Assembly: GCA_002722955.1 (NCBI GenBank)
Contig: PBMZ01000067.1
Span: 1 to 64,000, forward strand
Length of the DNA stretch: 64,000 nt
From: Planctomycetaceae bacterium
GTDB lineage: Bacteria; Planctomycetota; Planctomycetia; Planctomycetales; Planctomycetaceae
Reading direction: 5' to 3'
This document shows, in pieces, positions 1 to 30,887 of the stretch. Position numbers and translations under genes: made by a program. Below the pieces are notes generated by a model that saw only the letters and a program-made list of their open reading frames with translations, was not told where the DNA came from and did not search any database. The stretch's first letter is position 1. Every line of letters begins with the position of its first letter.

Positions 1-50
1 AGCCCCCAGTTAAATATCTGGGGGCTCGAAGACTCGGCCCCAGCCACCCG
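1..50. repeat. Partial palindromic repeat (gcccccagtt...gccacc family)
   Basis: The window opens inside a palindromic element. The stretch 'tctgggggctcgaagactcg' followed by 'ccccagccaccc' closely matches the right half of the element at 29726-29805, and the first bases pair with the 'tctgggggct' that follows. The left half must lie upstream of the window. It sits in the noncoding leader before the cyclase-family gene. Confidence 0.75.
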
Positions 51-23493: not shown

Positions 23494-23831
23494 GATGTTC
23501 TCCTAAATACCGCAGTGCCAATCGATGGTTGTCGATCACCAGCGGTGAGGGATCCATGCCTGTTTCACAGATGCTCATACTGATCATTTAGATATAAGAT
23601 ATATTTGGAAACTACGTACACACCTAAACGTGTGCAAGTATATTTGAGTAAGTTATCGACAATTGCGGGTTTCCACACACTTGGAAAGGGAGTTGATTCC
23701 GCCCCGTGACGAGGCATTGTCGCACCGAACGTAGCCTGACTCTCCGAGCTCTCTGAGTCGGGCTGCATTTCCCGACTCGGAGAGTCAGGCTACAAAGATT
23801 CGCTTATTGTGGTCAGAAACTCGAAGCTCGT
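23494..23831. other. Noncoding region between toxin and desaturase genes
   Basis: No ORF here is convincing; the track's 67-residue minus ORF (23565-23768) runs through a repeat and resembles nothing. The region contains an AT-rich stretch (about 23575-23660) that could hold the toxin gene promoter, and the palindrome at 23731-23793. Confidence 0.6.
23731..23793. repeat. Palindromic repeat (gtagcctgactctccgag family)
   Basis: The arms 'gtagcctgactctccgag' and 'ctcggagagtcaggctac' are perfect reverse complements. The centre holds an additional copy of the core ('ctctgagtcgggctgc...cccgactc'). Related sequence occurs at 18213 ('cgtagcctgac') and, more diverged, as 'gtagccatcactctccgagt' at 29638 and 29960-29985. 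Confidence 0.85.
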
Positions 23832-28717: not shown

Positions 28718-29635
28718 ATGGCTGCACCTTCGATTACACCGGGCGAGACGAAAATTGGCTGGATCGGCACAGGCGTCATGGGAGCCAGCATGGTTGGCCA
28801 CTTGATGGACGCGGGTTTCTCGGCGACCGTCTTTAGCCGAACCAAATCCAAAGCCGACGCTCTGATCGAAAAGGGAGCGGCATGGGGCGACTCGCCAAAG
28901 GCCGTCGCGGAAGCTTCTGACGTCGTCTTCTCGATCGTTGGTTTTCCGTCCGATGTTCGTTCGGTGATGCTGGGCGAAGACGGTGCCTTGGCCGGTTCGA
29001 AGGAAGGCAACGTGCTGGTCGACATGACGACGAGCGACCCGTCACTTGCCGTGGAAATTGCCGAAGCGGGCGCTGCCAAGGGCGTCGCCAGTGTTGATGC
29101 TCCCGTTTCAGGCGGCGACGTCGGTGCCAAGAACGGTGCATTGTCCATCATGATCGGCGGCGACAAAGAAGTCGTCGACGCACTCGAACCCTGTTGGAAT
29201 GCCATGGGCAAGACCATCGTCCATCAAGGCGGACCGGGGGCCGGCCAACACACCAAAATGGTCAACCAAACTTTGATCGCGACCAACATGATCGGAGTTT
29301 GCGAGGCTTTGATGTACGGTTACAAAGCGGGCCTCGATCTGCCAACAGTGATGGAATCCGTGGCAACGGGCGCCGCTGGAAGCTGGTCGCTTTCGAATCT
29401 CGGTCCGCGAATCATGGACAACAACTTCGATCCAGGCTTCTTCGTCGAACACTTTATCAAGGATATGGGCATCGCATTGGCCGAAGCCAAGAAGATGGGA
29501 CTCTCGCTGCCAGGTTTGGCACTGTCACATCAATTGTACTTGGCCCTTCAAGCTCAAGGTCACGGACGCGACGGGACTCACGCTTTGCAATTGGCACTGG
29601 CTTCCTTGGCCGGCGTCGATTGGAAAGGCCGCTAA
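28718..29635 (+). CDS. NAD(P)-dependent beta-hydroxyacid dehydrogenase family oxidoreductase
   Basis: The 305-residue protein has the N-terminal dinucleotide-binding '[16 protein letters not shown]', the substrate-binding signature '[16 protein letters not shown]', and the catalytic Lys region '[13 protein letters not shown]', in the positions normal for 3-hydroxyisobutyrate dehydrogenase / tartronate semialdehyde reductase enzymes of about 300 residues. It interconverts a beta-hydroxyacid and the semialdehyde; the exact substrate is open. The start has GGAGAG about 7 bases upstream. dapA lies downstream on the same strand, but the nested repeat cluster between them makes one transcript doubtful. 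Confidence 0.9.
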
Positions 29636-29725
29636 AGTAGCCATCACTCTCCGAGTGATGAGCCTCACCGAACAACATTGGCGGCGCTAGTGGATTGTCT
29701 AGATTAAGGATCTTCATGGAATACG

Positions 29726-29805
29726 GGGGTGGCTGGGGGCGAGGCTTCGAGCCCCCCAGTTGGACCAACTAGTCTGGGGCTCGAAGACTCGTCCCCAGCC
29801 ACCCC
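29726..29805. repeat. Palindromic repeat ('ggtggctggggg' / 'ccccagccacc')
   Basis: The arms 'gggtggctggggg' and 'gtccccagccaccc' flank inner arms 'ctggggctcgaagactc' and 'gaggcttcgagccccccag'. The right half is nearly identical to bases 1-50 of the window, so this is a family with at least two copies here. Confidence 0.8.
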
Positions 29806-29857
29806 GCGATAGAAACCTTTCCCGAAATTCGGTGAAGAACCTAATCTAATCCGCGTG

Positions 29858-29911
29858 TGCCACTGGCTCTGCCAGTGCGACCACAATTGCACTGGCAAAG
29901 CCAGTGGCGCA
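29858..29911. repeat. Palindromic repeat (tgccactggctctgccagtg)
   Basis: The sequence 'gtgccactggctctgccagtg' pairs with 'cactggcaaagccagtggcgc' across about 12 bases. Each arm is itself semi-palindromic (CACTGGC..GCCAGTG), so both a cruciform and two small hairpins are possible. Confidence 0.8.
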
Positions 29912-29999
29912 CAGGTTATGGCTGACAGACCACCAGTTTCATAAGCAACACCGAAAGGCTCATCACTCGGAGAGTGATGGCTACATTGGGAGCAGAGAT

Positions 30000-30887
30000 A
30001 TGTCGCGTAAGGGCGAGCAATTCGCAGGCTTGACCGTTGCCTTAGTCACGCCGTTTCGAGACGGCGCGGTCGACGAGCAAGCACTTCGTCAACTAGTCGA
30101 TTATCACGTCGAGAACGAGACCGACGTCATCAGTCCCGTCGGAACAACCGGCGAGAGTCCGACGCTTACACACGATGAGCACGAACGCGTGATCGCCATC
30201 GTGTGCGAACAAGCAGCGGGCCGCGTTAAGGTCATGGCCGGCACGGGATCGAACTCGACTGCCGAAGCGATTCGCTTGACGAAGTACGCCCAAAGCGTTG
30301 GCGCGGATGGCTCGTTGTTAGTGGCTCCGTACTACAACAAGCCAACTCAAGAAGGCTTCTATCAACACTACAAGGCCGTCGCCGAAGCCGTCGACATCCC
30401 GATCGTTGTCTACAACATCCCCGGCCGCACAGCCAAGAACATCGAAGCCGAAACGATTGCTCGCATCGGCGAGATCGACAACATCGTCGCCGTCAAAGAG
30501 TCGACAGGCTCGATGGATCAAGCGTCACAAATCTTGGCGCGCAGCGACCTCACGATTCTGTCGGGGGATGACAGCTTGACGCTTCCACTACTATCGATCG
30601 GCGGCAGTGGCGTGGTCTCGGTGGTGGGCAACATCGTCCCACGCGACGTGCAAGCCATGCTGGCCGCTTACCGCAACGACAACATGGCCGAGGCCCAAGA
30701 GTGGCATGCGAAGCTCTTCCCACTTTGCCGAGATATGTTGGGGCTGGCAACGAATCCGATCCCCGTCAAGGCAGCGATGGGAATGCTTGGCCGCGACACT
30801 GGCGAGGTCCGATTGCCAATGACGCCGCTCGACGATGCTCAAAAAGCCGCATTGCAACAAACTTTGACGGCCTACGGACTGTTGTAG
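30000..30887 (+). CDS. dapA: 4-hydroxy-tetrahydrodipicolinate synthase
   Basis: About 295 residues from the ATG at 30000, which has GGGAG 8 bases upstream and gives the usual family start ('[19 protein letters not shown]'); the track's earlier start lies in a repeat. The enzyme is a TIM-barrel class I aldolase condensing pyruvate with aspartate semialdehyde in lysine/diaminopimelate synthesis. Diagnostic parts are '[14 protein letters not shown]', '[14 protein letters not shown]', 'VYNIPGRT' (the Tyr and Arg of the active site) and the Schiff-base Lys in 'IVAVKESTG'. Length and order match normal DapA. It is cytoplasmic. Confidence 0.95.

Follow-up and report, generated by a model that had tools for sequence, protein, structure and literature searches.

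Introduction

Short palindromic repeats of the REP type are known from planctomycetes. GTAG-tagged REPs and their head-head dimers have been reported in this phylum among others, with dimers lying at most 20 bp from both convergent 3' ends and with the TAG of the tag overlapping the stop codon (Di Nocera et al. 2013, PMC3733652). In Pseudomonas fluorescens, inverted REP pairs form hairpins termed REPINs: these doublets have a narrow spacing (71 or 110 bp), move as a unit in a genome that contains a RAYT, and build clusters in which one REPIN has entered another or landed beside it (Bertels and Rainey 2011, PMC3116915). A search of the available literature for REPs in Rhodopirellula by name found no report.

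Here we analyse a nested palindromic block in a planctomycete contig; the whole stretch of 64,000 nucleotides that was studied is called the window. With a probability that we put at roughly 80%, the block arose in this lineage as three unrelated dispersed elements of the REP/MITE type, hereafter A, D and E, piled up in a single intergenic gap.

Results

A palindromic block fills the gap upstream of dapA

The nested block occupies the gap between a 3-hydroxyisobutyrate-dehydrogenase-like gene and dapA, which both read rightward; its first base lies 1 nt past the upstream stop codon and its last base 15 nt 5' of the dapA start (Table 1). The outer, middle, inner and side palindromes that a preliminary description had reported were all found in their places. 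The outer arms (29634-29665 / 29956-29987) are 32 nt long and 97% complementary, the inner arms (29726-29755 / 29776-29805) 30 nt and 93%, and those of the side palindrome (29855-29878 / 29889-29912) 24 nt and 92%; the middle arms, GGATCTTCATGGAATAC... and ...GGTGAAGAACC, delimit 29708-29841. Both relatives proposed for these layers also proved real: positions 1-50 hold a copy of the inner palindrome (the core of element D), and 23731-23793 a compact pair of GTAG-tagged arms related to the outer arms, although no exact copy of this GTAGCCTGACTCTCCGAG pair was present in the loci compared. The block is built of three dispersed elements instead of three concentric layers, and the side GCCACTGGC pair adjoins element D and does not lie within it. 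The outer layer does consist of inverted arms, but each arm is a small hairpin itself, and the layer is a REP pair. The block folds, as had been supposed, far more stably than shuffled sequence: -220.3 kcal/mol for 29636-29990 (355 nt) versus -116.8 +/- 6.3 (z = -16.3). A promoter and terminator scan of the region revealed no promoter-like or terminator-like site.

When the block was used as query against its own genome (an assembly of 7.1 Mb in 220 contigs, 79% complete), it split into independent repeat families. A family of inverted arms (element A) is hit by its 5' and 3' ends. For element D, many loci align in one piece with query positions 69-207 and others with positions 92-169 alone; the GCCACTGGC part (element E) has few matches in this genome and is abundant in the relatives G020 and G022-G024. 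Each of the three families is found elsewhere in the genome without the others.

Table 1. Features of the block, its flanking genes and related copies in the window
Feature	Position	Strand	Description
Upstream gene, 3-hydroxyisobutyrate dehydrogenase-like	28718..29635	+	NAD_binding_2 + NAD_binding_11; complete, native TAA stop
Element A, left REP	29637..29664	+	GTAGC, 8-bp hairpin CATCACTC-TCC-GAGTGATG, then AGCC
A-pair spacer, left part	29665..29707	.	unlike spacers of other A pairs
Element D, extended form, 134 bp	29708..29841	.	GGTTCTTC-type arms around GGGTGGCTGGGG palindrome; middle and inner layers
Core palindrome of element D	29726..29805	.	GGGTGGCTGGGGNCGAGTCTTCGAGCCCC / inverse; also found without outer arms
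Separation of elements D and E	29842..29854	.	13 nt
Element E, 58 bp	29855..29912	.	inverted pair of GTGYGCCACTGGC-TCT-GCCAGTG hairpins
A-pair spacer, right part	29913..29956	.	
Element A, right REP, inverted	29957..29984	-	CTAC end 15 nt 5' of dapA start codon
Downstream gene dapA, dihydrodipicolinate synthase family	30000..30887	+	
Element D core copy, half	1..50	.	cut by window edge
Separate compact GTAG-tagged inverted pair	23731..23793	.	GTAGCCTGACTCTCCGAG...CTCGGAGAGTCAGGCTAC; design related to element A

Orthologous gaps lack elements A and D

The gene pair is syntenic at 50 other loci (about 46 distinct sequences), and the relatives and best protein-match records are planctomycetes, including Rhodopirellula and Pirellulaceae. 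Judged by these relatives, the host probably belongs to the family Pirellulaceae. The orthologous gap mostly measures 60-120 bp, with a median of about 100 bp including the stop. As read from the sequences, neither A nor D is present in any of these 50 loci, and it is because of this absence that we consider the block a lineage-specific accumulation. The preliminary description had suggested comparing orthologous loci: the gaps of the relatives do not show an identical nested block, and its view of distinct dispersed elements holds, as the families occur separately and the orthologous gaps are free of A and D. An allele with exactly one layer missing was not seen among the roughly 46 relatives compared, none of which is related at strain level.

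The same gap carries other palindromes in several relatives, with clear inverted pairs in L096, L107, L139 and L143 and a GTAG-headed arm in L124; the pair reads GTAGGGTGGGC...GCCCACCCTAC in L107, begins GTAGGCCGGATC... in L096 and is E-like in L143. As several relatives bear such other pairs, the dapA-side gap is a recurrent landing place for REP-type elements. In L107 (3860-4060), 43 nt from the 3' end of the upstream gene are duplicated, with ~84% identity, in the flank of the GTAGGGTGGGC REP pair, perhaps as a trace of the insertion mechanism. A general duplication of the upstream gene 3' end behind A REPs was also considered and rejected, there being no excess over mismatched pairs.

Element A is a GTAG REP found at gene ends

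The outer arms belong to a GTAG REP, element A, whose stem covaries. The GTAG tag, invariant in 19 A variants, stands unpaired at one end of the palindrome and is followed by the hairpin. Four of the 8 pairs of the stem show double-sided changes, including T-A to G-C and A-T to G-C, and 96.7% of cells are paired; this covariation score was reached by 0 of 500 shuffles, a figure that gives no independent probability since the sequences are related. The A 25-mer, searched with up to 3 mismatches, yielded 69 + 61 matches (~130 in the genome) and the reversed control 0; the copies are dispersed and for the most part intergenic. Within the host's family the 25-mer occurs in 15 of 58 genera (35 of 170 genomes).

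The other A pairs (26 in number) are all inverted with GTAG outward, and 25 of them span 108-175 bp. The remaining one, at L208 (C148:26618-26884), is a second stretched pair of 267 bp that has another hairpin pair inside, GTGGTCCCGCGACTCCGCTCGCGGGAC...GGACCAC. The spacers of the 26 pairs are essentially unrelated (1 clear match in 351 comparisons), heterodimers are present at L049, L213 and L219, and beside some unpaired A REPs (L040, L044) a decayed partner stands at roughly the usual spacing.

With gene calls from a simple codon-usage caller trained on the window, 56 A REPs face the 3' end of a gene. Fifty of them fall between -4 and +25 nt of that end, and for 24 the stop codon is formed by the TAG of GTAG. 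If REPs were spread evenly over the window's own gaps, 3% would be expected within 6 nt and 11% within 25 nt. A-type REPs directly adjoin stop codons to either side at L314-L353 and at 29637-29984 of the window, where GTAG often supplies the TAG.

Order of events in the gap

The preliminary description had read the block as a record of serial insertion. A, D and E are indeed separate elements, but the inner layer is part of the D unit, and the record of order is weaker than claimed, the spacers of A pairs being unrelated and the gap lengths fitting REPs that frame resident DNA. True serial nesting, in which the A dimer arrived as one ~156-bp REPIN whose spacer was afterwards entered by D and E, has a substantial chance of being right, which we would set somewhat below even. 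The 348-bp A pair less D (134) and E (58) leaves 156 bp, inside the range of the other A pairs and in line with separate entry of D and E into the gap; yet a doublet moving as a unit is hard to match with spacers that are essentially unrelated and with the occurrence of heterodimers. The decayed partners of unpaired REPs make pairs look ancestral, the stretched pair at L208 holds a further hairpin pair, and REPINs inserted into or beside REPINs have a precedent in P. fluorescens (PMC3116915). The gap lengths, however, point the other way. Removal of the whole A pair leaves 16 nt here and 29 nt at L332, where the relatives have ~100 and 89 nt (L355), whereas removal of only the REPs (and of D and E) leaves 116 and 86 nt. 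The lengths at these two loci, a small sample of those with a REP-free ortholog, suggest that native spacers fit better than unit insertion.

We also put forward, tentatively and as less likely than not, that the mobile or selected unit of family A is the single REP placed at gene ends, its spacer being native. Both REPs of a "dimer" would then edge resident intergenic DNA, so that what looks nested would not have to be so. A may have preceded D and E or followed them.

Middle and inner layers form one element

Alignment of about 30 D copies gave a core palindrome of ~80 bp. The best D matches outside the window cover the near-whole extended element (query 69-207) at 79-85% identity; both GGTTCTTC...GAAGAACC arms are present at ~10 loci besides the window, and core-only copies are also common. 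Because the middle and inner layers recur together at these ~10 loci, they are one element and their nesting is no event at this locus. Insertion here of the inner GGCTGGGG into the GATTAAGG/GGTTCTTC palindrome, as originally suggested, is ruled out by these joint copies: the two travel as one 134-bp unit.

The nesting could nevertheless be ancient, the GGGTGGCTGGGG core having inserted long ago into an older GGTTCTTC palindrome and both versions having then spread. Core-only copies are common and L223, L224 and L225 have a GGTTCTTC-type arm without the D core, but these arm-only cases are few and partial and could be decayed extended copies, and no intact core-less copy of the middle palindrome was found; we regard such an origin as less likely than not.

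Element D often starts right behind an intrinsic terminator (L014, L015, L023, L024, L027, L034, L231). Of 35 D arms, 11 have a T-run of at least 4 within the 10 nt that precede them, versus 2% of random 10-mers from the same loci, an excess that suggests a target preference. In L225 (~254-320), a D-type left arm is fused directly to a GTAG/CTCTCCGAG-type palindrome and not to the D core.

Element E and the search for a transposase

Element E, which adjoins D at the window locus, is a REP without GTAG tag: a short palindrome, dispersed and found in inverted pairs. The host genome has full pairs at C126, C139 and C207 and one clear arm at C186, all outside A. The E copies other than that of the window locus lie outside A and D, and at L038 an E pair stands beside a D core, again side by side.

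No Y1_Tnp (RAYT) gene was found in the host's own genome with the Pfam model or with a relative's RAYT protein, although the assembly is only 79% complete. In sister genera, Y1_Tnp genes have GTAG REPs of this design to either side (L280, L296, L173). In G093 (L266), 182 bp separate an A-type pair from a Y1_Tnp ORF; this is one case in ~90 Y1 loci and, given the number inspected, may be due to chance. Among the Y1_Tnp genes there was no convincing case of adjacent D arms, and for E arms only E-like hairpins near two IS200-type genes were seen. These hairpins (CACCGGCTCTGCCGGTG) stand close to the transposase genes at L175 480-500 and L245 499-519, the two genomes being from a single genus.

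Discussion

The nested hairpin upstream of dapA is no single conserved structure; ordinary REP-type repeats have stacked there by chance. A single conserved element, RNA or cruciform, with nested stems would account for the very stable fold, but it is refuted by its absence from ~46 orthologous gaps and by the independent dispersal of its three parts, which recur with different flanks and, as a block, have no match in Rfam, so that we give this explanation practically no credence. For the pile-up that we favour, the A REPs would have been spread in trans by a RAYT (a Y1/HUH tyrosine transposase) acting on single-stranded hairpins, and D and E by other transposases; the arrangement is one of head-head A REPs at both gap edges with D and one E-type REP pair between them.

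If read-through from the upstream gene occurs, its RNA is predicted to fold into a very stable hairpin that leaves the 15-nt dapA leader outside, and the likeliest predicted effect would be that the upstream 3' end is shielded or that less read-through reaches dapA. A very strong nested hairpin can be a mere stack of independent repeats, which calls for caution before such a structure is named a functional RNA.

For element A, contiguity with stop codons has been published for other families, and the odd part is the combination of unrelated spacers with a narrow length. A single-REP unit, if true, would contradict the doublet-as-unit model for this family. As many A copies and many relatives exist, A REPs at stop codons with unrelated spacers lend themselves to testing which of the two moves, the REP or its doublet.

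Comparison with the described systems places each part of the block. Element A has the same architecture as the GTAG REPs of PMC3733652, although it (GTAGCCATCACTCTCCGAGTGATG) was not matched here to a numbered published family, and its head-head spacers are variable whereas conserved spacers are the rule of thumb given there for head-head dimers. Like the REPINs of P. fluorescens (PMC3116915), A consists of two inverted REPs that form a hairpin with narrow spacing (108-175 bp in 25 of the 26 other pairs), and the clusters described there resemble the block; unlike them, its spacers are unrelated and no RAYT was found in the 79%-complete genome. Element D shares with MITEs and other TIR elements its short length (in the 70-300 bp range), lack of coding sequence, terminal inverted repeats and dispersal, but differs in that no target-site duplication was evident by eye in the copy alignment. 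The literature already describes GTAG REPs, REPINs, dimers that abut stop codons and insertions beside dimers or between them, and the block is a well-preserved, new but ordinary composite of known kinds of repeat elements.
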